From: Candidatus Bathyarchaeota archaeon
GTDB taxonomy: Archaea > Thermoproteota > Bathyarchaeia > Bathyarchaeales > Bathycorpusculaceae
Assembly: GCA_026014595.1 (NCBI GenBank)
Contig: JAOZHY010000009.1
Coordinates: 124,001-188,000 of the forward strand
Length of the DNA stretch: 64,000 nt
Reading direction: 5' to 3'
The notes under the pieces were generated by a model. The model was not told the origin of the DNA, searched no databases, and was given only the letters and a program-made list of their open reading frames with translations. Each line of letters starts with the position of its first letter. Position 1 is the stretch's first letter. The position numbers and the translations under genes are program-made. Of the stretch, positions 13,624-55,623 are shown one piece after another.

Positions 13624-15255
13624 CTATGTGTTAGCTGCAGAACCTGGCTGTCCTTTAGCTAGAGCCCTTCTAAGGGCGGCAACCACGTTCTGTTTGCCCA
13701 TCGCCAGCATGTACGGGCCCAATCGCGGTCCCTGCGGCGCGCCTATGAGGATTTCGTAGAGGGTTTTGAAGAAGGCGCGAGGTTGCAACCCGTTGTTTTT
13801 TGCAGCGTTGAAGATGGCGTTCTGGATCCTGTCGGGGTCAGTTTCAGCTTCTAAAACGGTAACCAAGGATGCGACAGCGTTTCTCTCCTCGTCCGAGAGG
13901 CTCACTTGAGTTTCTTTGATTTCTTCAAAGTCTCTGACCCAGTTGAACGCGTACTCAATCCGCTTCGCCAAGTCAGCATCGATAGCCTGGTTTTTCTGCA
14001 AGTAGCCGTAGCTCTGGAGCTTCTCAGCGATAAACTCGTTCGTATGGTCTTTCGGCGCCATTTTAGCCAGAAAAGCCAGCAAGTTATATGGAACGTGAAC
14101 GCTTGGTTTGGTAGGTGGCTTCATGACCCAGCAGTACCTGTACAAGCCGCAGAGTTTCACGCGTTCTCGTTCGTCCTTTACCTGCTTCTTGCCGAAGTAC
14201 ACATCCTCCAGCGAGTCCAGTTCGTTCATGTAAACAGGAATATCCGACACATCCAGCGTCCGCGTGCCCACGAACCGCTTCAGCATCAGCAGAAGCAACG
14301 ACTGCGGCGATCCGTACTGGAACCACACTTGCGGCGTGAAAACGTTGCCCGATGACTTTGAGATTTTGCGTCCGCCCTTGTCCAAGAACATCTCGTATCT
14401 CGCGTGAGACGGTGGCTCGTAGCGCAGGATTTCACGGCATATGCGGTCGTTTATGCGCACCGAGTCGGCGATGTCTTTGCCGTAAGCTTCAAACCGTATG
14501 TCCAGCGCCTTCCACCGCGCTGCGAACTCGCCCTTCCAGCTGAGTTTGCCGCCGCCGATGATGCTGGCTTCGCCCTTGTGCCCGCACCCCTCGATTCGTT
14601 TGCCCCGGATTTCCAAGCCTTCGCATGAATATGTGACTTTATCGGTTTCTGGGAAAAACTCCAGCGCCTTGGTGGTGTAGATTCGCCCGCAGTTCTCGCA
14701 TACAGGAAAAAACGGCAGAACCTCAGTGTAACGCTCTTGTCCCACCTCTTCCTTGACGATTTCGCCAACCCGCTGCGCGTTCAACAGTATGGTGCGGATT
14801 TCATCTATCAGCAAGCCTTTCTCGTAAACTTCCTTCGCCGACATGTAACGGTACTCGATGCCGCACTTGTCCAAGGCGTCCAGCAGGAGCGAGCTCATGT
14901 GCTTGCCATAACTGTCATGGCAGCCGAACGGGTCTGGGATATTGGACACTGGAAATCCCAAGTACTTCTCCAGGGATTTCGGCAGTCCAGCAGGAACCTT
15001 CCGTAACCCGTCCTTGTCGTCGCAGAAAGCCACAAGCTCCGAGTTGAAGCCCATCTCCTTCAGTGCAAGGGTCACCGCGTAGGAACGCGCGGCGTCGCCG
15101 AGGCTTCCGATGTGGGGGAAACCGGAGGCGCCAAGACCCATCTCAGTCCTGACTTTGTCGAGGCTTCTGCCCAGTTTCCGCTCTCGCTTGACCACTTTCT
15201 GCGCCATCATGTCGTACCATGTGCCGTGACCGACGACAGTTTCGCCCATTAGCAT
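13624..15255 (-). CDS. lysS: lysyl-tRNA synthetase, class I
   Basis: GASGFPHIGSLGD (HIGH-like), KISKSSGN. Confidence 0.95.
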   Translation of the reverse strand: MLMGETVVGHGTWYDMMAQKVVKRERKLGRSLDKVRTEMGLGASGFPHIGSLGDAARSYAVTLALKEMGFNSELVAFCDDKDGLRKVPAGLPKSLEKYLGFPVSNIPDPFGCHDSYGKHMSSLLLDALDKCGIEYRYMSAKEVYEKGLLIDEIRTILLNAQRVGEIVKEEVGQERYTEVLPFFPVCENCGRIYTTKALEFFPETDKVTYSCEGLEIRGKRIEGCGHKGEASIIGGGKLSWKGEFAARWKALDIRFEAYGKDIADSVRINDRICREILRYEPPSHARYEMFLDKGGRKISKSSGNVFTPQVWFQYGSPQSLLLLMLKRFVGTRTLDVSDIPVYMNELDSLEDVYFGKKQVKDERERVKLCGLYRYCWVMKPPTKPSVHVPYNLLAFLAKMAPKDHTNEFIAEKLQSYGYLQKNQAIDADLAKRIEYAFNWVRDFEEIKETQVSLSDEERNAVASLVTVLEAETDPDRIQNAIFNAAKNNGLQPRAFFKTLYEILIGAPQGPRLGPYMLAMGKQNVVAALRRALAKGQPGSAANT

Positions 15256-15315
15256 TTAGCCTCTGCAACAATGACTGCAAGAGGGAATAAAAAAACGTTT
15301 AGAAAGAAACGACCG

Positions 15316-15657
15316 TTATTTTCGCCTTACCGCTGCGGCTATCGCGATGGCGGCGACCACGAGCAGTATCAGCGCCAACGCGTACAGTGCCAGATTAACC
15401 GAGAACAGGTACCAACCGCCGCCCACCGCTATCAACAGCAAGCCCAAGCCCATGGTGCTAAAAGCGCCGCGCTCGTACTTCTGAGGGGTCAAAGCCCGTA
15501 TGCCCGCCAAAACCAGCATCCAGCAGCCAGAAAGCACAAGAATCACTGGGACAACTAAACCCAAGGTTATGAGGTTAGCGGCAAAAAGAAGTATCGCCAC
15601 TACGACAATAATTAAAAAGGCGCCGATGGAAAGCAGTTCTCGACTGCTTTGAGCCAT
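15316..15657 (-). CDS. small multi-TM membrane protein
   Basis: several hydrophobic helices. Confidence 0.6.
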   Translation of the reverse strand: MAQSSRELLSIGAFLIIVVVAILLFAANLITLGLVVPVILVLSGCWMLVLAGIRALTPQKYERGAFSTMGLGLLLIAVGGGWYLFSVNLALYALALILLVVAAIAIAAAVRRK

Positions 15658-15669
15658 AAGCCCGCCTCC

Positions 15670-16647
15670 TTAAGAGGAAAGTTGCGCGCCGCACTCAGGA
15701 CAGAACTTTGACCCAGCAGGAATCGACTTACCGCACTTCGGACAGTTAATCGCGCCAGCCGACGGAGGCGTAAGCTGCGTTCCGCATTCGGGACAGAACT
15801 TCGACGTAGCTGGAACCTTCGCGCCGCACTTGGGGCAGATTACCAGCGCCGCTGCTGGCGCCTGCGTTGGGCCGGTGGGCGTCATTATTTGCGGTATGAG
15901 CACCATGCCAGTGCCTAAAGCCGCACCACCTCCGGTGGATTTGCCGAGGGATTCAGCAGCGCTTTTCACGGTTTCCATGCGCAGAACCTCTTCGGGCGCG
16001 GTTCTTCCGGTTTTCAGCCAGAATAGTCGCTCGCGGTATTCAGGTGTGGTGTCGATGCCTTCGAAGCGCAGGTCAGTCAGCTCGATGCCCAATCGCTTGA
16101 AGTAGTCAGCTACCGAGTTCTTCACTATCACTGAAGTTTCGTCGAGTCTGGTGAAGACGGTGACTAGGTCGTAGTGTGAAAGCTCGTCGATGAGTTTTTC
16201 GTTCAGGAAGCCCCGCAGGAAATTGTTTACGTCCGCGCTCGTGTAGATTTTTTGTCCGCCGATGACCTGGTTCACGAACAGCGAGGCGTCCTCGATTTTG
16301 AACCAGAAGCCGCCGAATACCTGAAGCGGCGCAAGCTCTGTTGTCTGCGCGCGGGCGCCATATTTTCCCTGGAAAACCTTTGTGGAAATGAAGATAACGG
16401 TCGCCTTGAACGGTGTCTGACCGAAGCCAGCGAGGCGCCTAAGGATTCCAGTCAGCAACGGCAAGTTAAGCGTTGTAAGCGTGTGTCTTCCGGGACCGAA
16501 GACGTCGTAGGCTTTGCCGTCTCTGAAGAACACCGCCATCTCATACTCATGCACTATGAGCTGGGCGCCCCAGGTGATGTCCTCGTTGGGGTATCGCCAA
16601 ACTATTTCGTCGGCGCCAACGTTCGTCCATTCTATAACTTGCGGCAT
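15670..16647 (-). CDS. SPFH/virion-core-like (YdjI-type) protein with two C-terminal zinc ribbons
   Basis: MPQVIEWTNVGADEIVWRYPNEDITWGAQLIVHEYEMAVFFRDGKAYDVFGPGRHTL; C-terminal CPKCG..CPECG twice. Confidence 0.88.
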   Translation of the reverse strand: MPQVIEWTNVGADEIVWRYPNEDITWGAQLIVHEYEMAVFFRDGKAYDVFGPGRHTLTTLNLPLLTGILRRLAGFGQTPFKATVIFISTKVFQGKYGARAQTTELAPLQVFGGFWFKIEDASLFVNQVIGGQKIYTSADVNNFLRGFLNEKLIDELSHYDLVTVFTRLDETSVIVKNSVADYFKRLGIELTDLRFEGIDTTPEYRERLFWLKTGRTAPEEVLRMETVKSAAESLGKSTGGGAALGTGMVLIPQIMTPTGPTQAPAAALVICPKCGAKVPATSKFCPECGTQLTPPSAGAINCPKCGKSIPAGSKFCPECGAQLSS

Positions 16648-16648
16648 T

Positions 16649-17191
16649 TTAGGTCACTCCTAATATTACTTCTCCTCTCTTATCAAAGGTTTCCTCGAAC
16701 GCTTCCAACTTGTCCGTTATGCTCTGTATCCGTTCTTTCGCGTTCTTGGTTTCGCCGCTTGCGATTTCGGATTTGAAAGCCTCCACCGCAGCGTCAAAGC
16801 CGTTGATTTCATCGACGAGTTTGTTGTCGAAGTCAATCATTCTGTCCAGCGCTTCTTCTTTGACCTTGACCACGTCAAAAAAGCCGGAATAGCCGTAAGA
16901 TGCGTGGTTAACCTTTTCAGCCACGCGGTCCATCTTTGCCATTAAGCGGTCCATGTCCGTTAAAACGTCAAAGTACCGTCGGTCAGTCAGCTTCTGGAAG
17001 ACCGTTTTCAGGTCGCTCTTCGATTCTAAAAGCCTTCGGTACAGGTGATTTCGGATAAGCTTGTCCGACTCGCGGCGCAGCTCCTTCTCCTTGTAACCTC
17101 GGAACCCAGGGATTGCCGCGACTATGCGCTCACCAAGGCGCATCTGACTTTTTGCTTCCGCATAAACGTCTTTTTTCTCGCCCATTTTCAA
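16649..17191 (-). CDS. coiled-coil protein, possibly PspA-like
   Basis: 180 aa, long helical heptad-like content; adjacent to SPFH gene. Confidence 0.55.
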   Translation of the reverse strand: MKMGEKKDVYAEAKSQMRLGERIVAAIPGFRGYKEKELRRESDKLIRNHLYRRLLESKSDLKTVFQKLTDRRYFDVLTDMDRLMAKMDRVAEKVNHASYGYSGFFDVVKVKEEALDRMIDFDNKLVDEINGFDAAVEAFKSEIASGETKNAKERIQSITDKLEAFEETFDKRGEVILGVT

Positions 17192-17248
17192 GATCCCTCT
17201 TCATGCGGTTATAATTAAGGGGCGCTTTTAAAGTTTCTTTAAACTGGA

Positions 17249-17992
17249 CTAGAACTTGGCTGGGGGTATATCGCCTTTCAAGGCGGTACCAGTGGCACCG
17301 TCGATAATAAGCTGATAAGCTTTGCCCTTGTACTCGTACTTGATGAACCATATTGGCGCGTGCAAATAGACCATCTGCTTCACGGTGTAGGTGGTTTGCA
17401 TCTCGACGAGTCTGTCCACATCCTTCTTAAGCAGAAAGCGGTGATGCGCGTCAATCTGCTGCTTGGCAAGTTCCATGGCTTCGTCCCTGTCGATTTCGCT
17501 GTTCAGAACCTTTGCAAAGCCTTCAATTCGGCGGAAGTCGTAGGGAATCTTGCCTTCCAGCGGCACATCGTACTCTCGAGTTGGGAATCCTGCTGCTTCC
17601 CGCGCCAGAACCAGCCAGTTGTACTCCTTCTCAATTTTGCCTTCCTTCACGATGGGCGGCGCTATGCGTTCAAATATCCCCTTGTAGCTGCTTGAGGCTT
17701 CAACGGACACAACCCAGAAGGGCAAGTAAACCAGATTCTTCTCGATAATCTTCGATTTTTTGGCAAGGTCTGGCGGTTTCAGAAAACCTGAACGCATCCA
17801 GTCGCGGATAGACTCTTCAATCTGCTTTTCATCAAACTTGTTCAGCAACAGCGAATGCTCAAAATTGAAGGCTTTCCCTGTTTCGATGACGGTGGTGAAC
17901 CCGCAGTACTTGCAGGTGGCTACTATCTCACCTGGCTGAAATTCGACGGGTGCGCCGCAGTGGGAGCATCGGATTTCCTGAGCCACGACCAT
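17249..17992 (-). CDS. zinc-ribbon protein of unknown function
   Basis: CSHCGAPVEF..CKYCGF N-terminal ribbon. Confidence 0.7.
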   Translation of the reverse strand: MVVAQEIRCSHCGAPVEFQPGEIVATCKYCGFTTVIETGKAFNFEHSLLLNKFDEKQIEESIRDWMRSGFLKPPDLAKKSKIIEKNLVYLPFWVVSVEASSSYKGIFERIAPPIVKEGKIEKEYNWLVLAREAAGFPTREYDVPLEGKIPYDFRRIEGFAKVLNSEIDRDEAMELAKQQIDAHHRFLLKKDVDRLVEMQTTYTVKQMVYLHAPIWFIKYEYKGKAYQLIIDGATGTALKGDIPPAKF

Positions 17993-17996
17993 GCGT

Positions 17997-19379
17997 TTAT
18001 GCCTTCAGTTTTTCCCTCTTAACTATCTCCCGTGCTACTATGACGCCTGAAGCCGAGGCCTGGACTAAGCCTCGGGTGACGCCTGCGCCGTCGCCGATGG
18101 TGAACAGGTTTTGGATTTTGGTTTCCAAAACGTTGTTCAGCTGCAGGTGGGAGGAGTAGAATTTCACTTCGATGCCGTAGAGCAACGTGTCTCTGGAATG
18201 GATTCCAGGCGCAATCACGTCCAGGGCTTGAAGCATCTCTCTTATGTCAGACAGGTAGCGGTAAGGCAACACGAAACTGAGGTCACCTGGCGTGGCGTTC
18301 TTCAACGTGGGCTCGACCACGCTGCGGGCGAGACGTTCAGGCGTGGAGCGCCTTCCAGAAACCAAGTCGCCTAAGCGCTGCACCATGACGCCGCCGCTCA
18401 GGAGGTTTGAGAGTCGAGCAACGTATTTTCCGTAAGCGATGGGTTCCTTGAAGGGTTCGGTGAACGAGGTGCTGACGAGGATGGCGAAGTTGGTGTTCTC
18501 GGTTTTCCGCTCCGCGTAACTCTGCCCATTCACGGTTAGGACGCCATCGTAAGATTCGGTGGTGACCTCGCCGTATGGTGAAACGCAGAAGGTTCGCACT
18601 TGGTCATCAAAAAGCTTCGAATAATAGACAAGCTTCGGCTCGTAAAGCGCCGTGGTTAGCTCTTCCATGACTGAGGCTAAAACTTCAACTCTCACGCCCA
18701 CGTCAACGGGGTTGTTCACGGTTCTTAAGCCGCGGACTTGTGCTTCGGTTTGAAGCCACTCAGCCCCGCTTCTGCCTGGCGCGACTATCACATATTTGCC
18801 GTAGATTTTTTCTCCTTTTACGGTCTCAACGCCCTTGACCGTGTGATTCTCAATTATGAGTCCCTTAACGTCCGTTCTGGGCTGAAACGTGATTTTGCTG
18901 TTAAGCTCTTTCCGCATCCTGCGGAGAGTGTCAGCGCATTTCTCGGTGCCCATGTGGCGGACCTCTTGCCTGATAAGCTTCAGCCCAGCAAGTGAAGCCT
19001 TGCGCTCGATTTCATCCACTTTTTCGACGTCTCCGCCGTAGACCTGCTCGCTTGCACCGTACTTCAGGTAAACGTTGTCAACGTAGCTGACGAGTGCGCG
19101 GAGTTCTTTTTCTGAAACGTACTGGTTGAGCCAGCCGCCCACCTCCGTGGACAAGGTAAGTTTGCCGTCACTATAAGCGCCTGCCCCGCCCCAGCCTGAG
19201 AGAACCGAACACGGTTCGCAGTGGTGGCATTCGAAGCCGCGGCTTGAGGGGCACTTGCGCTGGTCTATGTCTGGGCCTCTGTCGAGAATGAGGATGTTGA
19301 GGTTGTTTTTTTCTGTTAGCTCCAGTGCTGAAAAAATTCCTGCTGGACCCGCACCGACTATGATTACGTCGTACTTCAA
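17997..19379 (-). CDS. FAD-dependent dehydrogenase/oxidoreductase
   Basis: DVIIVGAGPAGIFSALEL; GDGAGVTRGLVQASASG. Confidence 0.9.
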   Translation of the reverse strand: MKYDVIIVGAGPAGIFSALELTEKNNLNILILDRGPDIDQRKCPSSRGFECHHCEPCSVLSGWGGAGAYSDGKLTLSTEVGGWLNQYVSEKELRALVSYVDNVYLKYGASEQVYGGDVEKVDEIERKASLAGLKLIRQEVRHMGTEKCADTLRRMRKELNSKITFQPRTDVKGLIIENHTVKGVETVKGEKIYGKYVIVAPGRSGAEWLQTEAQVRGLRTVNNPVDVGVRVEVLASVMEELTTALYEPKLVYYSKLFDDQVRTFCVSPYGEVTTESYDGVLTVNGQSYAERKTENTNFAILVSTSFTEPFKEPIAYGKYVARLSNLLSGGVMVQRLGDLVSGRRSTPERLARSVVEPTLKNATPGDLSFVLPYRYLSDIREMLQALDVIAPGIHSRDTLLYGIEVKFYSSHLQLNNVLETKIQNLFTIGDGAGVTRGLVQASASGVIVAREIVKREKLKA

Positions 19380-19487
19380 GGGGCATTATCTCCCGGGAAC
19401 CCAGAGTTAGATGTAGCCACTAGGATATATTTTTAGCGAAAACCGTAAGTGAAGATGCATACCGTTTTAATAGAAAAGCGGACGACG

Positions 19488-19829
19488 TCACTCCCGAGCG
19501 TATGGTATGAGGCAGAGGAACCGGAGAAGCTTTTGTCCAGTGTTCTTGAACTGGTGCTGCTCGTTTGCTGGAACAAAAACGGCGTCACCAGCGCTGAACG
19601 CTGTGGCTTTTGCGCCGTCGAAAAGTTGTCCTTCGCCTTCGAGTATGAAGACTTCGTGTTCCCAAGGGTGCGTGTGGAGGGGGCTGTGTCCGCTGGGCTC
19701 CATTTCGAAGAGGCGCATGGCAAAGTTTCCTGCTCCGATTTCCTTGGTGATGAGCCAGCGTATCGTTGTTTTTGTGGCGCCGCCTTCGGCATCTTGGGCT
19801 TTCACGGTGTCGTAGTGGAATATCTTCAT
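19488..19829 (-). CDS. cupin domain protein
   Basis: GHSPLHTHPWEHEVFILEGEG; VPANEQHQFKN. Confidence 0.9.
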   Translation of the reverse strand: MKIFHYDTVKAQDAEGGATKTTIRWLITKEIGAGNFAMRLFEMEPSGHSPLHTHPWEHEVFILEGEGQLFDGAKATAFSAGDAVFVPANEQHQFKNTGQKLLRFLCLIPYARE

Positions 19830-19945
19830 GTTTTAGCCTCGGTAGTGTTATTCTGGTGCAGGGTTTTAAGGTGAACGGTGCCACGCGTCTTTTAAAGATA
19901 TATCTCAAAAACATTTAAATCCCCGCCGAACCAGAAATACCCGTA

Positions 19946-20410
19946 ATGCCAACCGAAAACATAGACGAACTCATCTCAGACTTCTCCCGCTTCTACATAC
20001 TCACCATACTCTACGAAGGACCCGCCCACGGCTACCAAATAATCAACCGCTTCAAAAAACGCGTCAAAAAAGAAGTCAGCCCAAGCCTCGTCTACCCCTT
20101 CCTCCAGCAACTGGAAGAAAGGGGCTTAGTGAAGCACACCGTCAAGCCCGTGGGCGAGAAACAACGCAAAATCTTCGAACTCACCGCCGAGGGCAGGGAA
20201 CTCTGCACGGAACTCTTCAAACGCTTCGCCGAACTCGTCTCCATCGCCATCGAACCCAGCCTCTACATCTGCGCCCACTGCGGCTGCAAAGTCTACGAAG
20301 GCGCTTACCGAGAGGCCATCGACGGCAAAGAACTCGCGTTCTGCTGCATGCACTGCGCCCGCTCCTACAAAGAAACGAAAAAACTCGCCAAGAAAACCGC
20401 AGAAACTTGA
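19946..20410 (+). CDS. PadR family transcriptional regulator with C-terminal Cys cluster
   Basis: LTILYEGPAHGYQIINRFKKR; C-terminal CAHCGC...CCMHC. Confidence 0.85.
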   Translation: MPTENIDELISDFSRFYILTILYEGPAHGYQIINRFKKRVKKEVSPSLVYPFLQQLEERGLVKHTVKPVGEKQRKIFELTAEGRELCTELFKRFAELVSIAIEPSLYICAHCGCKVYEGAYREAIDGKELAFCCMHCARSYKETKKLAKKTAET

Positions 20411-20609
20411 AATTAATCCATCAGTTTGTTTTAACGTCTTCCTGCAGTAGCTTGCTTTCACGAGTTAGCAAGTAAGGGCACGAACTCGTTTTCTTTTTGA
20501 TTTATATCGGAACATACGATAGATTCTTTTCCTGAAAAACTTAACTTAAGGCATGAAAAAGACAGTTTTTATTAAATCAGTTTAAATACCTAAACTTTTC
20601 TGTGGCTCA

Positions 20610-21896: not shown

Positions 21897-21998
21897 AGCA
21901 AAAGAACTATCTGAATTAAAATCTGGCAGATAAGTTACCTTTCTTCAAAAGATCTTTTCTCGTGCAAGCTTGCAAACTGTCAAATTGGGATTTGAATG

Positions 21999-22083
21999 CA
22001 TTGCAGAAATAGATGGAGCCAGAGTGTTCAGGAAGCGAAAGTAGTCTTATATGCTCCCAGTTAATCTTTTATGGCTTCTATGA
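21999..22083 (+). repeat. left copy of 85-bp direct repeat (candidate att site / integrase 3' remnant)
   Basis: 84/85 by eye with 49758-49842; encodes IAEIDGARVFRKRK-stop plus the 3' end of a UPF0147-like gene on the minus strand. Confidence 0.9.
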
Positions 22084-22612: not shown

Positions 22613-23908
22613 TTATTTGGGTTTATATCTCAAGATAGCGGCTATTCCTCCTAAAGCCGTGAGTTGCGCTTTTTCATCTGACTCCGTAGATATGACTTCA
22701 ACCCTCGCGTCTGTCTGCGAAGCTGCATCCTCCAAGACATCCACTATATCTTTTTCCTCTACCTCATACTCGTGGGAATTGCATCTCTCGCAAGGATTAG
22801 ACAGCATTTTCCGAATTGTTTGTGTTTTCTCCTTTTTGTCTACAATCTCTGTTTTCCGGAGTCCACATTTTTTGCACATTGCACCAATTTCAATTAGGTT
22901 TGTACTGTCTGTGATTATGACAAGCTCGACTTCCTCATTCCTAAGTGCGTTTAAAACTGGATATAGCCCATAGATAGCCAAGCCGTCTTGCTTGGCTAAT
23001 TCTGCCAGAAGTCGGTGAGCAACCATTTTCTCCTCGGGTGCACACATGTTGCTTATGGCTTCGGAAGATTTTTCAAGTATCTCCTTCACTCCTTCTTTAC
23101 CGACAGATTGCGTATCAACCGTGCTCAGAATGGCGTTCTGGAGCTCATAATGTAGGTAATTACCCTTCAAGAAATCGTTCTTCGTAGATCCTGGTCCTCC
23201 CACTATCATCGCGATTATTCTGTGATCCTCAAGAAACGCCTTTGTAGCATGCTCGGCGATCCTGTGGAAAAAGTATGTAAGCTCCATGTCACGTTCTCTT
23301 TCGTAACGTCTTTGACTCTGCCCACCCTTTCCTGATTTTCCAGGAATCCCAGAAGTGATATCTTTTATAAATTCAAGGCGTTCACCGTTAAGTAGACCAA
23401 AGCTAGCCTCTTTTGAGTCCATGGCGACAATTCCCACAACTCTTGGGTTTCGCAGCATCTCCCTCAAAGGCTCTAAATGGAAATGGTCATCAACCTCGTA
23501 GAGATAGGTGGCAACAGGTTCTGGTGGAACTATTTCTTCGACAGAAGCAACTTCGCCTTTCTGATCGTTTACGGCGAAAGTCCCTGCAAATAGGGCTAAG
23601 CCATTTTCCGAGATTTCCTTTTTCAGTTTCAGGTGTTGAAGTAAATTCTTAAAAGCATCTTGAAAACGATCCTGAACGCTTTCGTGGTTCATGGTAGCAT
23701 ATTTAGACTGATTTTTTAGGGTGGTGATTATTTGATCAGGTGATGAGTTTGGGGGTATGTAGAGAGATATGAACTCCTTTCCTACTCCTTCTTTGTCGGA
23801 GAGCCAAGCTATCATCTTCCTTAGTCTGTGTTGTTTCACGGAATTACTGGTTCCCGTTTGACAGGCGTAAATATATGTTGCTTTTTCAGAACCCAAATTT
23901 GGCACCAC
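22613..23908 (-). CDS. divergent archaeal peptide chain release factor aRF1 paralog
   Basis: GKGGQSQRRYERERD catalytic GGQ loop; full three-domain length 431 aa; NIKS region reads NHES. Confidence 0.88.
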   Translation of the reverse strand: MVPNLGSEKATYIYACQTGTSNSVKQHRLRKMIAWLSDKEGVGKEFISLYIPPNSSPDQIITTLKNQSKYATMNHESVQDRFQDAFKNLLQHLKLKKEISENGLALFAGTFAVNDQKGEVASVEEIVPPEPVATYLYEVDDHFHLEPLREMLRNPRVVGIVAMDSKEASFGLLNGERLEFIKDITSGIPGKSGKGGQSQRRYERERDMELTYFFHRIAEHATKAFLEDHRIIAMIVGGPGSTKNDFLKGNYLHYELQNAILSTVDTQSVGKEGVKEILEKSSEAISNMCAPEEKMVAHRLLAELAKQDGLAIYGLYPVLNALRNEEVELVIITDSTNLIEIGAMCKKCGLRKTEIVDKKEKTQTIRKMLSNPCERCNSHEYEVEEKDIVDVLEDAASQTDARVEVISTESDEKAQLTALGGIAAILRYKPK

Positions 23909-24153: not shown

Positions 24154-25206
24154 TTGAACAAAACAAAGATTGTCTGTACCCTTGGACCTGCAAGTTTCTC
24201 ATATGAAGTAATAAAGGATATGCATGAGGCAGGACTTAGCGGAGTCAGAATAAACACTGCATATGGGTCAATGGAACAATACAAGAGGACAATTGAGTGT
24301 GTTAGAGAAATCGGTGAAATCCCGATAATTCTAGACGTTAAAGGACCAGAGATCAGAATAAACGCCAACAGAATGGTTGTGAATAAAGGTGAATTCTTTG
24401 ATGTTGGTTTTGGAGATAAGGAGCCTAGTTTCAATTGGGACTTTTATGATAAGATGGCTGTTGGCGACTTGGTTATAATTGACAACGGTAAAGTGAGAAC
24501 GCAGGTCTTCGAGAAATTTGATAGACAACTGCGACTAAAGGTGATTTCTGAAGGAGAAATCGCAGATGGTAAAGGAGTCAATGTTCCAAACAAGCAGCTC
24601 TCAGTTCCAACGCTTTCGGAGAAGGACAAAGAAATAGTGCACTTTTCCGTAGAACACGACATCGATTACATAGCCCTGTCTTTCACTAGAAACGTTCAAG
24701 ACATAATCAACCTGAAAACTGAAGCTGAAGACTTCAAGGGAGCGATCATTGCTAAAATCGAGAATCCGGAAGGAATCAGCAATTTCAATGAAATTCTCGA
24801 ACACTCAGACGGCATAATGGTTGCCCGAGGAGACATGGGAGTAGAGCTTGAACCCGAAAAGGTTCCAGCGATTCAGAAATCAATAATCAAAGCCTGCAAT
24901 CAAAAAGGCAAGCCAGTGATAACTGCAACTGAAATGCTTGAGTCCATGATGAGTCACCCGTTGCCTACTAGGGCAGAAGTCAGCGACGTAGCTAACGCCA
25001 TACTAGATGGAACCGACGCAACTATGCTTTCAGGAGAAACAGCTGTTGGAAAATATCCTGTAGAATCTGTTGCGATGATGTCGCGAATAGCAGCGGAAGC
25101 AGAAAAAAGCAACGCAAAGCCATGTTGGAGAGGAAAGTTTCGCGAACATATCAGAGACTATAAGCAATGCTGTTCAGAGGATTTGCCGGTCAATGCCGAT
25201 AAGTAA
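24154..25206 (+). CDS. pyk: pyruvate kinase, catalytic part
   Basis: [47 protein letters not shown]. Confidence 0.93.
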
Positions 25207-25519
25207 GGTGGTAACTCTTACAAAATCAGGATACACGGCAAGGATGATCTCTAGATTCAGGATCCCTCAACCCATAATCGCTGTTACACCTGATGATAGA
25301 GTTAAGCGGCAACTGGAGCTTGTATTCGGAGTCTACTCTACTAAGGTTGATTATCGAGAACAAAAAGATCATATTCTCTATATAGCGAACTGTCTGCAAT
25401 CAATAAAATTACTTAACGATGAAGATACAGTGCTTTTCACTGCTGGGTTCAGGACAACGGAAAAGCATGCCAGCAATCTAATTGAAATTCATAAAATTGA
25501 GGAACTGCGGGCTTCATAG
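25193..25519 (+). CDS. pyruvate kinase C-terminal domain, separate frame
   Basis: [36 protein letters not shown]; overlaps preceding ORF by 14 nt. Confidence 0.85.
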
Positions 25520-25602: not shown

Positions 25603-27390
25603 TTAGAGGTAGGCGTCCGACGCGTATTTCTGCATCATTCTATGCGTATTGAAGTAATATGCAACTTTTCCTATCGAGTTCTTCATCATGTTTATCCAAG
25701 CGTCCCTTGTCTCATAGAAACTGGGCAGTATCAAATACTGCAATTTACCGTAGATATCGTTCAGTTCCCTCTTACGTCTATCTTCTTCGCTAACAATTGC
25801 ATCTGGAGATGGCCCGATTGCCCACCCAGTTAGACCCTCAACACAGCCTTCTATCCACCAGCCGTCTAATACGCTGAAGTTTATCACGCCATTATGCGCT
25901 GCTTTCATGCCGCTTGTACCCGATGCCTCATAAGGCGGCAAAGGCGTGTTCAACCACAAATCAACACCAGAAGTCAATTTTGCAGCAATTTCCATTGTAT
26001 AATTTTCAAGATAGGCGATTTTTACGTCGTTTTTCAAACGTTCAATATACTCGTAGATTTCTTCAATTAGTTTTTTACCCATTACATCCTTGGGATGCGC
26101 CTTTCCAGCGAAAACCAGTTGAATCTTCTGGTCCTTTTGTGCTTCCTTTAATCTTTCTAAATCCGAGAAAATTATGGTTGCTCTTTTGTACTCTGTTGCC
26201 CTTCTCGCGAATCCTATAGTTAGAGTGTTAGAATCCATCGTGACTCCGGCTTTTTCGTGGATAAAATCTAGCAGATTCTGTTTCGCTTTCTGGTGAGCTT
26301 CCCATATCTCTTCATCGGGAATTACGTCAACTCTTACAAGAAGTTCAGGTTCGTTTGCCCAACCGCGAATATATTTGTTAAAGAGTTCCCTGAAGCAGGG
26401 GCAAGTCCAATAGTGCGAGTGCACTCCGTTTGTAATTTCCTGTATATGATATCCTGGGAAGAGTTTTCGAGAGTACTCCATGTGTTCTTCAGTTACGCCA
26501 TTGGTGTACTTGCTTAGGTTCAATGCCAAGAGGGTCATGTTCAATCTGTCAGACCCGCCGTAGTCTTTCAAAACATTTAGAGGAACTTCATCTTCAAGAG
26601 TTTTTGAAAACAGGTCGTATAAGAATTTGTCAAAGGCTGCAGCCACAGGCGTGTGAGTGGTAAAAACACACAGATTTTTCACTTTGTCGGCGTCAAGGTT
26701 GTTTCTTCTTAAAAGTTCCAGGGTTAGAAGGCTTGAATGTCCTTCGTTCATGTGATATTTCTTAACGTTAATGTTTAACGCTTCAAGAATTCGCTGTCCA
26801 CCTATGCCTAGAACAATTTCTTGTTTAAGCCTATACGCTTCGTCTCCTCCGTAAAGAAAATCAGTTATCCCCCTGTCTTCTGGATCGTTGCCTTCAACAT
26901 CTGTGGTAAGGAATAGAACGGGAATGGTGCCTCCGGTCATGCTTTCTTGTTCGTAAACCCAAGCGCCAACTTTTACTATGCGTCCAGATATTTTTAAGGT
27001 TGTAGTTTGTGGGAGCAGTTTCATGAACTTCGAAGGTTCCCACTCTTCTGGATATTCTAGCTGTTTTCCATCGGATGTTATCTTCTGTCTTAGATAGCCC
27101 TTTTTGCTGAGAAGAGTTACGGCGATTAATGGGAGTCTTAGGTCTGCACCTGATCTGATTACGTCGCCGGCTAAAACGCCTAGGCCTCCGCTGTAGGTGG
27201 GAATGTTGCTGTCGACGCCGATTTCCATTGAAAAATAGGCGATTTTGGGTCCGTCAATGAAGCTGCGCATGCAGTATTCGCTGTCAAAATAGTATTGCTT
27301 TGCTAGGAAATCTGTCTTGAAATTGGCTTTTTCGGGATCAAGGGGCATTCCGCATACTGGGTCTTTTACAATCATATTCTCAAACTCCAA
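25603..27390 (-). CDS. alpha-glucan (glycogen) phosphorylase with N-terminal YHS metal-binding domain
   Basis: N-terminal VKDPVCGMPLDPEKANFKTDFLAKQYYFDSEYC then AYFSMEIGVDSNIPTYSGGLGVLAGD; PLP motif ASGTSGMKAAHNG. Confidence 0.92.
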   Translation of the reverse strand: MEFENMIVKDPVCGMPLDPEKANFKTDFLAKQYYFDSEYCMRSFIDGPKIAYFSMEIGVDSNIPTYSGGLGVLAGDVIRSGADLRLPLIAVTLLSKKGYLRQKITSDGKQLEYPEEWEPSKFMKLLPQTTTLKISGRIVKVGAWVYEQESMTGGTIPVLFLTTDVEGNDPEDRGITDFLYGGDEAYRLKQEIVLGIGGQRILEALNINVKKYHMNEGHSSLLTLELLRRNNLDADKVKNLCVFTTHTPVAAAFDKFLYDLFSKTLEDEVPLNVLKDYGGSDRLNMTLLALNLSKYTNGVTEEHMEYSRKLFPGYHIQEITNGVHSHYWTCPCFRELFNKYIRGWANEPELLVRVDVIPDEEIWEAHQKAKQNLLDFIHEKAGVTMDSNTLTIGFARRATEYKRATIIFSDLERLKEAQKDQKIQLVFAGKAHPKDVMGKKLIEEIYEYIERLKNDVKIAYLENYTMEIAAKLTSGVDLWLNTPLPPYEASGTSGMKAAHNGVINFSVLDGWWIEGCVEGLTGWAIGPSPDAIVSEEDRRKRELNDIYGKLQYLILPSFYETRDAWINMMKNSIGKVAYYFNTHRMMQKYASDAYL

Positions 27391-48598: not shown

Positions 48599-49803
48599 AT
48601 GCCTGAAGCCACCTTGCCCTGCCCGCAATGCGGTTCCAACCGCATATACCGGGACGGAATGCGATATTTAACAAATGGCGAAAGCATTCAAAGGTGGCTT
48701 TGCCGCGACTGCAATTACCGATTCAGCCAAACCCAAAAACAGAAAAAACCATCACAAAAATCTTCAGAATGGAATTTAATTACAACCTCCAACTTATCTC
48801 TAGAGCACCAAGAATGCAGTGAATCGCACACGCGAGGAGCACGGGTCCTCCAGACAGGAGGCTTAAACTTGGTCACAAGCGGAACCCGACAGGAAACAGC
48901 CTCGCGGGAGGGCACAACACAGCTAACAGACAAAACAGGAAAAATCGTTGAATTCCTCTGGAACCTACGCCAAAACGGAGTCCAAAGCAACACCCTCGCA
49001 AGCTATGGCGCAGTCCTCAGGAAACTAGCCAAAAACACCGACTTAACACCCGAAGCAGTCAAAGAATACCTGGCAAAAGACAAAGAATGGAACGAAGCCA
49101 CAAAAGCCATGACAGTCATCGTCTACGGCAGCTTCCTAAAATTCAACAACCTCTCATGGCACCGCCAAAATACAAGCCCGTAGACAAAGCGCCTTTCATA
49201 CCCACGGAAGCCGACATAGACCAGCTCATCTCAGGAAGCGGCAGAATACTCGCAACATTTCTCCAATTCCTAAAAGAAACAGGCGCAAGATGCGGAGAAG
49301 TAGCAAGACTGAAATGGAGCGACATAGACTTCGAACGAAAAATCGTACGCATAACCCCAGAAAAAGGAAGCAGAGCACGCGTATTGCCAATCAGCCGCAA
49401 ACTAATCGATATGCTAAACAACCACTCAAGACAATCGGAAAAGGTCTTCGCAACCCTCTACAGCCTTAAATCCAACTTCTACAAGACACGAAAAAGCATA
49501 GCATTCAAACTCCAAAACCCACGCCTAAAAGAAATCGGCTTACACACATTCCGCCACTGGAAAGCCACCATGGAATACCACAAAACAAAAGACATCCTAC
49601 ACGTCCAGCAACTCCTCGGCCACAGAGACCTCAGAAACACACTGATCTACATCAACCTGGAAAAAGCGCAGTTCCAGAACGCAGACGACGAATTCCACGT
49701 GAAAGTCGCTCACAACCTAGAGGAAGCCTGCAAACTGCTCGAAGTTGGCTTTGAATACATTGCAGAAATAGATGGAGCCAGAGTGTTAAGGAAGCGAAAG
49801 TAG
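48599..49803 (+). CDS. tyrosine recombinase/integrase, split by a frameshift (48599-49183 and 49087-49803)
   Basis: zinc ribbon CPQCGSNRIYRDG; core-binding domain; catalytic ARCGEVARLKWSDID, HTFRHWKATMEYH, QLLGHRDLRNTLIYI. Confidence 0.88.
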
Positions 49804-49842
49804 TCTTATATGCTCCCAGTTAATCTTTTATGGCTTCTATGA
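49758..49842 (+). repeat. right copy of 85-bp direct repeat (candidate att site)
   Basis: matches 21999-22083 with one mismatch (C22029/A49788). Confidence 0.9.
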
Positions 49843-50104
49843 GGCTCATGACGTTCCATAGTTTTACTCGCGTGTAAGGCGGCATGTTCGGGTCCTGCAG
49901 AATCTCGTCCAAAAGCGAAACCGCGTTTGAAGCCCTCACGGCAGGCGTGAACTCTGGACTCTGCAGCGCGTCCATGGCGTCCTTTGCCGCGCGTCGGATG
50001 TTCCTCGGAGTCGTGCTGTCTTCTGAAACTGCCCCGAGCACGGCCAACGCTTGCCTAATCTTTTCCTCGTATTCCTCTGCCTTTTTCTTCCGCACCATAA
50101 ACAT
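49820..50104 (-). CDS. UPF0147 family protein
   Basis: VLGAVSEDSTTPRNIRRAAKDAMDAL..ASNAVSLLDEILQDPNMPPYTRVKLWNV. Confidence 0.92.
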   Translation of the reverse strand: MFMVRKKKAEEYEEKIRQALAVLGAVSEDSTTPRNIRRAAKDAMDALQSPEFTPAVRASNAVSLLDEILQDPNMPPYTRVKLWNVMSLIEAIKD

Positions 50105-50174
50105 GAACCACCTAAATCATTCGCAGCAGTCAAATTATATAAGCTTTGGCACGTATTTACTTTGGGGTTCTCCA

Positions 50175-50531
50175 ATGGAAGGGAAAAAAGAAGACCAACC
50201 CATCAAACGCATGGCTGACCTGCTACGCCAAGGCGCCACCTTAACCGAACTGTCGTGTCCAGTCTGCGCGTCGCCGCTCTTCAGGCTGCAAGACGGCACG
50301 TTATGGTGCGCCAAAGACGAGAAAAAAGTCATCGTAGTAAAGGAAGGAGAAGAGCCTGAAGCTGGCAGCACAGCGTACGACAAGCTTGAAGCCACGCTCC
50401 TGTCCAAGGTGCAGCAGATACAGGACAAAATCCAGAGCACCGAAGACGTGGAGGAACTGCAGAAGCTAAGCGCCGCGCTCTCCGAGCTGCTCAGCAACCT
50501 TGAACGAGTAAAGAAAATGAAAAAACCCTAA
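50175..50531 (+). CDS. Sjogren's syndrome/scleroderma autoantigen 1-like zinc-ribbon protein
   Basis: LLRQGATLTELSCPVCASPLFRLQDGTLWCAKDEK. Confidence 0.85.
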   Translation: MEGKKEDQPIKRMADLLRQGATLTELSCPVCASPLFRLQDGTLWCAKDEKKVIVVKEGEEPEAGSTAYDKLEATLLSKVQQIQDKIQSTEDVEELQKLSAALSELLSNLERVKKMKKP

Positions 50532-50547
50532 GCGAGAAGCGCCCAGA

Positions 50548-51063
50548 ATGCTTGGAACCTACGAGAATTTCCCCGCGAGCACCCACCTCGTAGCAACTTT
50601 TGCGTCACAGCTTTCAAGCAGAAAACTCCAAGAGAAACTCATTCAGGTTCTCCGTGGAGTAAACCGCAAAACCTTCAGCTTCGACCAAGTTGCACAGCCA
50701 GCGTTGCACGACTGCACCGTAATCCTGGAAGCGGGGTTAGCTGAGGGCGAAAGCTTCAGCTTCATCGACGATGAAGAAACAGAGAAAGCCCTCGGCTTGT
50801 TGAGGAAGGCATCCTTCGAGAGGATGGACCTGTTCTGCGTCGTGCGCTATTACAAGGGTACAGCGGAAAAAAAGAAGCCCCTAAAATTCGATTATTACAT
50901 GCTCCGCGCAGTCTTCGGCGAGGGCTCGATGGAGCTTCAGGTTTTTCACGAACGTGGCCCGAGGTATATTTCGCCCGAAGACCTTGTCGTATTCCTAGTT
51001 AGGGAAGTAAACAACACTTCAGCGCGGAGGATTCTGAGAACGGTTGAGCCTTCTACGGATTAG
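50548..51063 (+). CDS. hypothetical protein
   Basis: 171 aa intact ORF. Confidence 0.65.
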   Translation: MLGTYENFPASTHLVATFASQLSSRKLQEKLIQVLRGVNRKTFSFDQVAQPALHDCTVILEAGLAEGESFSFIDDEETEKALGLLRKASFERMDLFCVVRYYKGTAEKKKPLKFDYYMLRAVFGEGSMELQVFHERGPRYISPEDLVVFLVREVNNTSARRILRTVEPSTD

Positions 51064-51652
51064 CGTTCAAAAACTTCAACACAGTCGCGTGCAGCGCTTC
51101 GGCAACTGCGTTTTTTGGTTTGTTGCCGTCGATTCTGATTAAGTCGCCTTTTTCCACGAACTGCAGGTAAATCTCTCGCACTTTCCGCTGTGTCTCCAGA
51201 TTCTCCATCACAGACCTGTGAGCCTTCAGCCGCCGCATAACGGTTTCTGGGTTGACATCTATGAAGAGGGCTAAGTCTGGGCGAAGAGCATGCTCATTTA
51301 TCTTTTGTATCCAGTCCACGCTGAGCCCGGCGGCGCCTTGGTAAGCCAGCGAGGAGTAGACGTATCGGTCGGAAATCACCAGTTTCCCTTGACGCAGGGC
51401 GGGGAGAACCTCGTTTTGCACATGCTCAACGCGGTCAGCTGCGAAGAGCAGCGCCTCGACGGTGCTTGGGAGGCGTTTTTCCCGGTAAAGGATGCTTTTT
51501 CTTATGAAGGTGCCGATGCTGCCGCGGCTGGGCTCCGCCGTGTAGACGGCGCCGTGACTTTTCTGCAGCTTTTCCACGAGCAGTTTGGTTTGGGTGGTTT
51601 TTCCGCAGCCGTCTAATCCTTCGATGCAGATGAAGACGCCTTTCCTGTTCAC
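51053..51652 (-). CDS. tmk: thymidylate kinase
   Basis: FICIEGLDGCGKTTQTKLL; DRYVYSSLAYQG. Confidence 0.95.
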   Translation of the reverse strand: MNRKGVFICIEGLDGCGKTTQTKLLVEKLQKSHGAVYTAEPSRGSIGTFIRKSILYREKRLPSTVEALLFAADRVEHVQNEVLPALRQGKLVISDRYVYSSLAYQGAAGLSVDWIQKINEHALRPDLALFIDVNPETVMRRLKAHRSVMENLETQRKVREIYLQFVEKGDLIRIDGNKPKNAVAEALHATVLKFLNANP

Positions 51653-51737
51653 TATTTCTCAACCTCGCGGTGCCGTAGCGTTAATCATTATAGGGAGGCA
51701 CATAAATATAACTTGGCGAAGCGTGGAGGCGTGTGGA

Positions 51738-53018
51738 ATGCCGAAGGCGTATTGGGGCGAGATAAAGGATCCAGTACACGGCTACGTGTACATCACCGAC
51801 GCAGAGAAAGCCATCATCGATTCATATCCTGTGCAGCGGCTGCGAAGGCTGCGGCAGCTGGCGGGATCAGAGTACGTTTATCCCGGCGCCAACCACACCA
51901 GATTCGAGCACTGCGTCGGCGTCATGTACTTGGCTGGAAAGGTTGTTGAGAACCCAAACATCTCGGGCGTGGTGAGCGATGAGGAGATGGATATGGCACG
52001 GGTTGCAGGGTTGCTGCATGACGTTGGGCACGGTCCGTTTTCGCACGTTTTTGAGCAGCTGCTGATACGCGATTTGGACAGGACGCATGAGGACCTCACT
52101 TCGTGGATTATCGAGAAAAGCGAGTTAAGCGACAAGGTGGCGAAGATGGGGTACGCGCCTGAGGAGATGGGGAAACTGGCGGTGGGCAAGCTTCACAAGC
52201 TAGGCAAGGCTTTTCTGGACCAGATAATCAGCAGCGCCGTGGATGTGGACAAGCAGGACTTCATCGTTAGGGACACGTTCCACACGGGCGCCGAGTACGG
52301 CTTCATCGACGTGTTCCGGCTAATCCACGCTTTGGACGTGCTGGGCGAGGACCTAGCCGTGGAGGTCGGTGCGCTGTCGGCGCTGGAAGCGTTTATGATT
52401 GCGCGGATTGAGTCGTTTAAGAGCATCTACTTCCACCGCGTGGGGCGGGCGGCGCAGATAATGCTTGCCATGGCGATGGAGAAGGCGAACGAGGAACTCG
52501 GGTTGACGGCGTTTAAGACGCCTGAGGAGTACATGGCGATGGATGATTACACGGTGTGGTCGGCTTTGAAGCGCTGCGAGAAGTCGAAGGGGATAATTGC
52601 GGATTTGGAGCGGCGGCGGCTGCTTAAGTGCGCGTACGAGCGGACTTTCTACCAGAAAGACACAGTAGTTTCGAACATTTTTGGGCGCGAGGCGTACAGG
52701 CGCCAGATGCAAGCTGAAATCGCCAAGGAAGCAGGCGTGGACGCTGAGACAGTGGTGATTGATGTGCCCACAGTGCCATCGGTACCGTATCACCACGCGG
52801 TGCTGATGGAGAGCATGGAGATTCCTGTATTCACTAGGACGTCGACGGGCGGCAAAGAGTTGCAGCGGCTCAGCGATATCTCGAAGATTTTTGAGACTTT
52901 GAAGGGTTTCATGAATATACTGCGGGTTTACACGAGGGAGGCTGACAGGGAACGCGTTGGGAAGGCAACCGTCACGATTCTGGGCAAGATTCCGTCGGCA
53001 GCTAAAATCTCTTTTTAA
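51738..53018 (+). CDS. HD-domain phosphohydrolase
   Basis: IKDPVHGYVYITD; TRFEHCVGVMYLA; GLLHDVGHGPFSHVFE. Confidence 0.93.
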   Translation: MPKAYWGEIKDPVHGYVYITDAEKAIIDSYPVQRLRRLRQLAGSEYVYPGANHTRFEHCVGVMYLAGKVVENPNISGVVSDEEMDMARVAGLLHDVGHGPFSHVFEQLLIRDLDRTHEDLTSWIIEKSELSDKVAKMGYAPEEMGKLAVGKLHKLGKAFLDQIISSAVDVDKQDFIVRDTFHTGAEYGFIDVFRLIHALDVLGEDLAVEVGALSALEAFMIARIESFKSIYFHRVGRAAQIMLAMAMEKANEELGLTAFKTPEEYMAMDDYTVWSALKRCEKSKGIIADLERRRLLKCAYERTFYQKDTVVSNIFGREAYRRQMQAEIAKEAGVDAETVVIDVPTVPSVPYHHAVLMESMEIPVFTRTSTGGKELQRLSDISKIFETLKGFMNILRVYTREADRERVGKATVTILGKIPSAAKISF

Positions 53019-53029
53019 CCGTGTTCTAA

Positions 53030-53593
53030 GTGATTGTTAAAATAGGCGAACGCAGATGGATAAAAGCGAGAAGTGCAGACTTGGAGGAGGACTACGTGGA
53101 AAAAGGCGCTAAAGCCGCCGCAGAAGACCAGAAAATCATCAAAGTAAAAGTTCACAGGAAGAAACAGGAACCATCGGCGGCGCTGTTCTCGCAAAAGGAC
53201 ATCAGACGCTTCGTCACCGAGTTCGTCGCATCATGGATAAGAGGAGACATAACCATCCGTTTCCCAACCGCGGCAGAACTTGCAAAAAAGACGCCGCTGG
53301 CGATAGCGTTTCCCACAGACCCGTCCGTGAACGCGGAACTGAAGATAAAAGAGCATTACGTCGACCTGCTGTCTATTTGTGCTGGCATCAAACCCGTCAC
53401 GCCTGAAGAACAGGAAAAAGCCGTCGCAGAGACTTTCAAGATGCTGCTTATGTTCCGTTCAGCGAACAGGATAGAAGGCAAAATCATCTCAAACGACCTG
53501 GAAAAGCGAGTTGAAGAACTGGAGAAAACTGTTAAAACACAGAGCACGCTTGTGGAGCAGATAACCGGTTTCCTGTTCAAGGAGAAGAAGTAG
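53030..53593 (+). CDS. hypothetical protein
   Basis: 187 aa ORF directly after the HD gene; C-terminal coiled coil. Confidence 0.65.
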   Translation: MIVKIGERRWIKARSADLEEDYVEKGAKAAAEDQKIIKVKVHRKKQEPSAALFSQKDIRRFVTEFVASWIRGDITIRFPTAAELAKKTPLAIAFPTDPSVNAELKIKEHYVDLLSICAGIKPVTPEEQEKAVAETFKMLLMFRSANRIEGKIISNDLEKRVEELEKTVKTQSTLVEQITGFLFKEKK

Positions 53594-53877
53594 AACGGCG
53601 TAAGAAAAGCGTAAGCGCTTCAACGAGGAGGCTTCTTTTCCGATGGAAGGTACCATGCGAGGATCTCTTCTATGGTTTTTTCCGAGTCCCGCTTCTTTTC
53701 AAAGCTTCCTTGACTGAAACAGAGTTTTCTTTCACACGCCTTCCAGCAAGTAATATTTTGCAAGACGAGAATATAGAGCAATGTTTTTGAACAGTGTGTT
53801 CACATTTTTGAACCATGCTGTTCAAAAGTGATGAATTAAATTCAAGCATGGCATTTGCTTTGTGACAGGTGAAATCT

Positions 53878-54435
53878 ATGGCAAATGAAACTCGAAGAAT
53901 AGGCTTGTTCGGGGTCACAGGTATTCTTATCGCTGTTGTTATAATAGCGGGTTTTGTCATTGCAAACAATGTTTTCCAAGTTTCAGGTAAGGGTACGCTG
54001 ACCATTCGGGTAATGGACAAACCAGTGGAGCTTAAGAACCTGAACGTAACTATAGATTGGGCTAGAATACAGGACCAAAATGGAAACTGGATTAATCTGA
54101 TGTTGAGGACTGAACCGTTCTATTTCGACTTGTTATCGTTGCAGAATGTCTCTGAAACTCTCTCTGAAACCGCGATTCCTGCAGGCAATTACACGATGAT
54201 ATCGATGCATGTGCTCACTGCTAACGCGACTTACTTGGACGATAGCACTGTTGACCTAAACGTGCCCAGCGCCGTTATCAAAGTTCTCTTGAAACCTCAG
54301 CTTAACTTGGAAGACGGCGGCCAAGTGACAGTTCTCATAGACCTACAACCTGACGACCTTAATTCGATAGCGATAAGCCACAGCCTGAACCTGCGTCCCG
54401 TGATTAAAGCAGTGGTGCCTTACTCCGACCAGTAG
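53878..54435 (+). CDS. DUF4382-like extracytoplasmic protein
   Basis: N-terminal TM; GTLTIRVMDKPVELKNLNVTIDWARIQ..NYTMISMHVLTANA. Confidence 0.7.
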   Translation: MANETRRIGLFGVTGILIAVVIIAGFVIANNVFQVSGKGTLTIRVMDKPVELKNLNVTIDWARIQDQNGNWINLMLRTEPFYFDLLSLQNVSETLSETAIPAGNYTMISMHVLTANATYLDDSTVDLNVPSAVIKVLLKPQLNLEDGGQVTVLIDLQPDDLNSIAISHSLNLRPVIKAVVPYSDQ

Positions 54436-54473
54436 TGAAATAGGCAGAAGCAACTTAAAAGAGGCTTAAAACG

Positions 54474-54818
54474 TTGACAACAGAACCGGCAACAGCCTTC
54501 GATGAACTCCTGCTTCGCACTATCGATGAAGCCCTAAATTCTTTGGGGGAATCAGTGAAACAAGCTATTTACTTCCACATCGAGAACACATTTGGCCTAA
54601 ACAGAATGCAAATCCCAGAAAATCTTCAACTATTTCAGGAAGCGCTTGAAAAAATCTTCGGAGCAGGCGCGCGTTTAATAGAAGTGCAAATCATAAAAAA
54701 ACTGCATGATGCCACTGGGAACTCGCTGGCGATGAAGAAAAGCGAATTCGAATTCATCAAATACATAGACGTAGCTAAGCAAAGCTATCTAGCAAACGCC
54801 TCCGCAGCGGACTGCTGA
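54474..54818 (+). CDS. hypothetical archaeal protein
   Basis: 114 aa ORF; alpha-helical. Confidence 0.6.
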   Translation: MTTEPATAFDELLLRTIDEALNSLGESVKQAIYFHIENTFGLNRMQIPENLQLFQEALEKIFGAGARLIEVQIIKKLHDATGNSLAMKKSEFEFIKYIDVAKQSYLANASAADC

Positions 54819-54854
54819 AAGCCAAACGCGTCCCCTTTCTTTTTTCTTTAATTT

Positions 54855-55286
54855 TCACGGTTTCTGTCTCCAAGCCTTAAATGTTTCAAACCACATTATT
54901 CCTGCAGCCAGCAAGCCCAAAAATAGGGCGAAGGTGCTGTAGAAGTCCACGCGGTTGAACTGGGTTAAAAAGAAGATCAGAAGCGTCGTGAACATGGTGG
55001 CATACAAGAAATGCCTTGGAAGCATGAACGCTCCGAAGCGCACGAACTGTTTCAAAACACCCACGTTTACAGCTTTAACTAGACGGTATTCGCCGTTCGT
55101 TTTCTCTGCCAAACCCAACTCAGTTAACTTGTCCAAGTGATACACGGCTAAGGCTGGACTGGAAAACCTTAGCGCCCGCTGGGTTTCCCGCACGCCAACT
55201 GCGCCTTTGTTTGAACGCAGCAGTAACCAGTATACACGCAGTGTGTTGCCTTTCAGGACGTTTTCAATGCTTTCTTCGCTCATCAT
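54855..55286 (-). CDS. winged-helix protein with two C-terminal TM helices
   Basis: VGVRETQRALRFSSPALAVYHLDKLTELGLAEK then two TM helices. Confidence 0.75.
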   Translation of the reverse strand: MMSEESIENVLKGNTLRVYWLLLRSNKGAVGVRETQRALRFSSPALAVYHLDKLTELGLAEKTNGEYRLVKAVNVGVLKQFVRFGAFMLPRHFLYATMFTTLLIFFLTQFNRVDFYSTFALFLGLLAAGIMWFETFKAWRQKP

Positions 55287-55475
55287 CGTTCAGTCGACTA
55301 TTGTAGCTTGCAGCCGCTATTTAACGTATGTTAAGTCTAAATCTGAACCACACAAATGCACAGGCTGAGATGCGCGTCTTCCAAAATGCAGGTGCGCAAG
55401 GGCTTAGGGATAGCGAGAGAAGGGTAAGGTTTATTCGATTGTAATAACATTTGCATGATGCTTCAGCTTGAATGT

Positions 55476-55553
55476 GCTCCGGTAGTATAGTCCGGTCAAG
55501 TATTCCGGCCTTTCGAGCCGAAGACCCGGGTCCGAATCCCGGCCGGAGCACCA
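55476..55553 (+). tRNA. tRNA-Glu(TTC) with encoded CCA
   Basis: GCTCCGG...CCGGAGC-A-CCA; loop CTTTCGA; T-arm CCGGG-TCCGAAT-CCCGG. Confidence 0.93.
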
Positions 55554-55623
55554 CATTTGTCTGCGGTAGGTGCTTAAACTTTTTCTATTACGAATTGATT
55601 ATTAGGGGTGTGAAGGCGGGCTT

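Follow-up and report, generated by a model that had tools for sequence, protein, structure and literature searches.

The gene at 22613–23908 of the window (the whole 64,000-nucleotide stretch of Candidatus Bathyarchaeota DNA analyzed here) raises the question of what role may be left to an archaeal release factor that carries a peptide-release loop and lacks the motifs for reading stop codons. The gene is encoded on the minus strand, begins with GTG, ends with TAA, and specifies a protein of 431 amino acids; the original prediction placed it correctly and left the strand unstated. Translation confirms the aRF1-type protein described there, with YATMNHES, YEVDDHF, and a GGQ loop. The score against the aRF1/eRF1 model TIGR03676 (361.3 bits; cut-off, 234.7) and the full-length alignment with solved aRF1/eRF1 structures (PDB 4af1 aRF1, E = 1e-52) exclude a chance likeness. 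Pfam eRF1_1, eRF1_2, and eRF1_3 are all matched, and domain 3 is thus present. Alignment and reading of the sequence locate in this domain the zinc-ribbon cysteines CKKC...CERC (codons 345–376; 22781–22876, minus strand) and the motif GGIAAILRY (codons 420–428; 22625–22651, minus strand), which in aRF1/eRF1 serves partner GTPase binding, a role carried to the paralog by homology (PMC2613156). A structure predicted from seven sequences is poor (mean pLDDT, 48.5) and was kept out of the evidence. Phylogeny against aRF1/eRF1, proposed earlier as a check, places the protein and its relatives in one clade inside aRF1 (17 sequences; support 100/100 in maximum-likelihood trees). All 17 members match TIGR03676, and the alignment indicates that domain 3 with GGIAAILRY is retained across the clade and the zinc ribbon in most members.

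Beside NIKS and YxCxxxF, the third element of stop-codon decoding is GTS, which is GTE in archaeal aRF1. With positions mapped to human eRF1 numbering, alignment and translation show all three to be altered in the window protein. GKE stands at the GTS/GTE element (codons 43–45; 23774–23782, minus strand), with Lys at the Thr32 equivalent; YATMNHES, one residue shorter, stands at the TASNIKS position (codons 70–77; 23678–23701, minus strand); and YEVDDHF stands at YxCxxxF (codons 137–143; 23480–23500, minus strand), with Val at the Cys127 equivalent. These losses extend to the whole clade: Thr32 is replaced (mostly by Lys), Asn61 is deleted, and Cys127 is replaced (mostly by Val) in 17/17 members. 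The NIKS-equivalent loop has no sequence common to the clade and is longer in some members, and NHES is unique to the window protein among its relatives. Canonical aRF1s (41 sequences) share 32 invariant sites in domain N and 50 in domains M and C, if a single exception is tolerated; the paralogs have lost 15 and 9 of these, respectively (Fisher p = 0.007). Compared with canonical aRF1s, identity among the paralogs is 0.50 versus 0.67–0.71 in domain N, and domain M is equally conserved (0.66 versus 0.65). Purifying selection is evident from dN/dS values of about 0.1–0.2 (0.12–0.21 in unsaturated pairs), which are lowest in domain M. The catalytic-but-not-decoding signature recognized in the window protein is therefore real and common to all 17 members. 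Since every stop-reading element is lost and no conserved sequence replaces them, the comparison indicates loss of stop-codon reading across the clade rather than gain of a new stop specificity.

The peptidyl-hydrolase loop, GKSGKGGQSQRRYERERD (codons 190–207; 23288–23341, minus strand; translation and alignment), follows the clade-wide consensus GK[ST]xKGG[QSW]SQRRYERERD with rare exceptions. Both of its glycines are near invariant, as is the loop itself, at an overall identity of 48–71%. Paralog Gln197 corresponds to eRF1 Gln185, and paralog Gln199 to eRF1 position 187. Position 185 is Gln in 7/17 paralogs, Ser in 7/17, and Trp in 3/17; the GGS members form one clade (99/97) and the GGW members another (100/100), and GGQ changed to GGS once and to GGW once. 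Position 187, by comparison, is Gln in 17/17 paralogs, whereas the nearby canonical aRF1s have Ala there in 41 of 42 cases. The "intact GGQ" of the original prediction thus holds for the window protein and fails as a family feature, given that ten of the 17 members have GGS or GGW and the invariant Gln lies two residues on. All 17 have the form GG[QSW]SQ, that is, GGxSQ, the motif of aVLRF1 and acVLRF1, as defined in the literature rather than from aligned VLRF1 sequences (Burroughs and Aravind, PMC6514570). In families without the glutamine, the loops are poorly conserved and variable in length (PMC6514570). Gln187 is not diagnostic by itself, because the aRF1 of Sulfolobus acidocaldarius also reads GGQSQ.

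Two reduced forms of such proteins were observed in passing. The paralog copy in one genome (G107; L056:3724-4836, identical to L019:1501-2613) has in-frame deletions that remove most of the NIKS-equivalent loop and the zinc ribbon; it retains the catalytic loop despite these deletions and represents a natural minimal version. A viral contig of 61 kb (IMGVR_UViG_3300033153_004916) encodes a standalone aeRF1 central domain of 132 amino acids (KHGKGGQSQRRFERGREE; L091:4962-5360). Neither an N nor a C domain lies in frame with it, and it may be a minimal release-factor domain carried by a phage.

The paralog coexists with canonical aRF1 and Pelota. The window's genome (2.06 Mb in 51 contigs, 89% complete) contains a canonical aRF1 with TASNIKS, YRCDSRF, and GGQ (G000:C30), to which the paralog is 38% identical, and a separate Pelota (G000:C49). 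The protein is thus a second aRF1 beside the canonical one, as had been supposed, rather than the sole release factor typical of its lineage that would have refuted the original prediction. A weak Pelota-profile match at G000:C49:41732 was rejected, as it is another protein of 286 amino acids with no GG loop. A genome assembled as a single contig (G133) likewise contains a canonical-type aRF1, the paralog, and a weak third match of Pelota-like kind. The paralog is never the replacement of canonical aRF1, except in one assembly (G097) where the paralog was found and the canonical factor was not; a gap in that assembly is the probable cause, since no aRF1 match of any kind was obtained in 11 of the 122 genomes of the class that are of good quality. 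The paralog is aRF1 by descent, with the three domains, full-length homology, GG loop, zinc ribbon, and GGIAAILRY of canonical aRF1/eRF1, and differs from it in the loss of GTS/GTE, NIKS, and YxCxxxF in every member and in the GGS or GGW of 10/17.

The clade is patchily distributed among the genomes searched, with members in a single family of Bathyarchaeia and in a few Nitrososphaeria. A survey of 260 genomes of the class yielded 13 orthologs in 12 genomes, all from the window's own family and 53–71% identical to the window protein. Four further paralogs come from public records (two from Nitrososphaerales), and each of these four genomes has a second aRF1-type match. The scan of public contigs relied on exact peptide patterns, a method of low sensitivity, and the profile searches covered the window's own phylum. 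Three carriers were found in a sample of 401 genomes from the class to which Nitrososphaerales belongs; most carriers overall are metagenome assemblies. The sister of the paralog clade is a set of Nitrososphaeria aRF1s (100/95; 99/96 without long outgroups), whereas the host genome's native aRF1 groups with Bathyarchaeia in the maximum-likelihood trees. Duplication within Bathyarchaeia was rejected, as a constraint joining the paralogs with Bathyarchaeal aRF1 failed the AU test (p = 0.007). From the sister grouping and this rejection, the most likely course would be duplication on the Nitrososphaeria side followed by transfer into one family of Bathyarchaeia, with the caveat of long branches. 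The paralogs thus appear to be a horizontally moving clade that has kept the three-domain, tRNA-shaped body of aRF1 and lost stop-codon reading. No conserved operon partner was found; neighborhoods differ except between near-identical genomes. A search for virus- or phage-borne full-length relatives found none.

In the window's genome, the paralog lies at the left end, as the first gene, of an integrated element (about 28 kb; 22084–49842) that is specific to the lineage and carries metabolic and transport cargo. The window is collinear with contig C68 of a same-genus genome (G073) at 91–92% identity over 13666–20417 and 48620–55554, and the segment between 20417 and about 48620 is unshared except for its PrimPol–integrase end. 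This end encodes a bifunctional primase-polymerase (PrimPol, PF09250; 46002–48596, plus strand) and a tyrosine (phage-type) integrase (PF00589; 49087–49803, plus strand). Direct repeats of 119 bp (left, 21966–22083; right, 49724–49842; both on the plus strand) are candidate att sites: the right copy overlaps the integrase 3′ end and is 93% identical to the left, in which an integrase 3′ end is joined to the left end of the element. GC content is 43.5% in the element versus 50.5% and 50.0% in the flanks. The synteny break, the repeats, and the lower GC bear out the description of the gene as island-borne. The integrase 3′ end in the left repeat suggests that the segment from 20418 to about 22085 is a remnant of a former tandem copy.

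In G073, full or partial copies of the 119-bp repeat flank each of two 17.5-kb units, which are 99.99% identical; their PrimPol and integrase genes are related to those of the window's element, but their cargo differs and the paralog is absent. This tandem arrangement at the same site (G073:C68, about 8079–43131; L102-L104) is either a real tandem integration or an assembly effect. Two further observations concern genes inside the window's element. The pyruvate kinase beside the paralog (24154–25519) is encoded in two overlapping frames, one for the barrel domain and one for the C-terminal domain, owing to either a frameshift or an assembly error, and a glycogen/starch phosphorylase-type protein (25603–27390, minus strand) carries an N-terminal YHS domain, an unusual fusion.

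The paralog as a core gene of this element family was considered and rejected. Paralogs in other genomes have different neighbors with no homolog of the window's integrase or PrimPol nearby, and the PrimPol element family occurs in 15 of 92 genomes of the family, among which only the window's own has the paralog. The gene is accordingly cargo and not an element function. A second aRF1-type gene on mobile DNA also occurs in haloarchaeal plasmids (14 records). The proteins from the five records examined (L086-L090) are short (four of about 358 amino acids and one of 291) and group with haloarchaeal aRF1; they differ from the paralog in lacking the zinc ribbon and in having GTE, NIKS, YxC, and GGQ intact.

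Release by Vms1, a member of the VLRF1 family, is not tied to stop codons according to published work, and Pelota/Dom34, which is related to aeRF1, needs no stop codon to act; its N domain is different, and it lacks a GG loop. The paralog is unlike Pelota in having the GG loop and in its profile score (78.3 bits; cut-off, 177.65), and its genome has a separate Pelota. It shares the GGxSQ catalytic-loop motif with Vms1, aVLRF1, and acVLRF1 (PMC6514570). However, trees and scores place it inside aRF1, and it keeps domain 3, which aVLRF1 lacks (PMC6514570). It scores 34 bits against the VLRF1 profile NF041024 (cut-off, 125), and by profile nearness to VLRF1 (36 bits) it is no closer than canonical aRF1 (42 bits). 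Together with the GGQSQ of Sulfolobus aRF1, these scores indicate that the VLRF1 likeness would be at most convergence.

These features suggest that the paralog may be an aRF1-derived, codon-blind ribosome factor that acts as a peptidyl-tRNA hydrolase in ribosome rescue, a proposal for and against which the chances seem evenly balanced. The paralog would enter the ribosomal A site without need for a stop codon, probably delivered by aEF1A via the conserved domain 3. Its loop, GK[ST]xKGGxSQRRYERERD, would reach the peptidyl transferase center, and the nascent chain would be released from ribosomes beyond the reach of canonical aRF1. Catalysis would have passed from the glutamine of GGQ to the invariant one two positions further along the loop, as in the GGxSQ of aVLRF1 and acVLRF1, leaving the first Gln free to drift to Ser or Trp. 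A hydrolase with a working Gln187 is favored by the near invariance of the loop and by its GGxSQ form, unlike the glutamine-less families. Against it, a non-catalytic role explains equally simply why the GGQ glutamine is missing in 10/17 members, and Pelota already covers rescue in the same genome.

The main rival to the hydrolase is a silencing or hibernation factor like Balon, which would sit in the A site of ribosomes that are idle or under stress, whatever the codon there, and would protect the ribosomes or block translation without cutting peptidyl-tRNA. Balon, a member of the aeRF1 family, has neither NIKS nor GGQ and binds idle ribosomes at the A site (PMC10901736). The putative archaeal Balon proteins likewise have neither motif, and their genes are invariably found together with aeRF1 (PMC13324472). 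The paralogs share the family, the lost NIKS, and the canonical factor alongside; the GGS and GGW members partly fit the definition of Balon, and the Rv2629-family profile gives a weak match in 17/17. The likeness does not go far, however. The window paralog scores 33.1 bits against the Balon profile, far below the cut-off of 320, and solved Rv2629 aligns with E = 0.0014 over only 44 residues. Moreover, the paralog loop and both its glycines are near invariant, whereas the loops of inactive families are poorly conserved (PMC6514570), seven members keep GGQ, and no association with HPF or another hibernation gene was seen in paralog neighborhoods. The paralog also occurs in Bathyarchaeia and Nitrososphaeria, outside the lineages, such as Methanosarcinia and Thermoplasmatota, named for archaeal Balon (PMC13324472), which was compared by description only. 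A Balon-like role is thus unlikely, and still carries appreciable weight.

The position of the gene at the left end of the element and its patchy distribution would also fit an element-encoded modulator of host termination, which would compete with canonical aRF1 for aEF1A, ABCE1, or the A site and alter readthrough or translation during propagation or conflict. This is improbable, given the gene's status as cargo and the other carriers, which have no such integrase or PrimPol near the paralog, and given that searches with defense-system and phage-family profiles gave no match. The changed stop-reading motifs had suggested altered stop specificity, which might serve recoded genes in the element, and this is not supported: the NIKS-equivalent loop is unconserved among relatives, stop codons are used alike in the element and its flanks (chi-square p = 0.98, small sample), and genes of clade members end with all three stops. 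A profile search for PylS gave nothing above the cut-off, and with ordinary stop use a pyrrolysine or otherwise recoded stop was discarded. Such a factor is very improbable. A decaying duplicate without function would account for the lost decoding residues, the internal in-frame deletion in G107, and the patchiness, but nearly all members are full-length open frames, dN/dS is well below 1 in every domain, and the loop is near invariant. The selection data largely refute decay, which scarcely merits consideration.

If the codon-blind hydrolase is correct, a wider course of events can be sketched tentatively and is rather doubtful as a whole: after decoding was lost, catalysis would have shifted from GGQ to GGxSQ, termination would have given way to codon-blind release or quality control in parallel to VLRF1/Vms1, and the factor would have crossed from one archaeal class to another, in part by way of mobile elements.

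Annotation models name these paralogs "peptide chain release factor aRF-1", although all stop-reading elements are gone. The clade is a natural experiment that splits the two jobs of a release factor, as decoding is lost throughout and the peptide-release loop is kept, and it makes a clear prediction on chemistry: in members with GGS or GGW, the glutamine at work would be the one at position 187. If the proposed function is true, a codon-blind factor would join Pelota, HibA, and putative Balon in archaeal ribosome rescue or hibernation, and the location of the gene shows that integrative elements are able to carry a factor of this kind.
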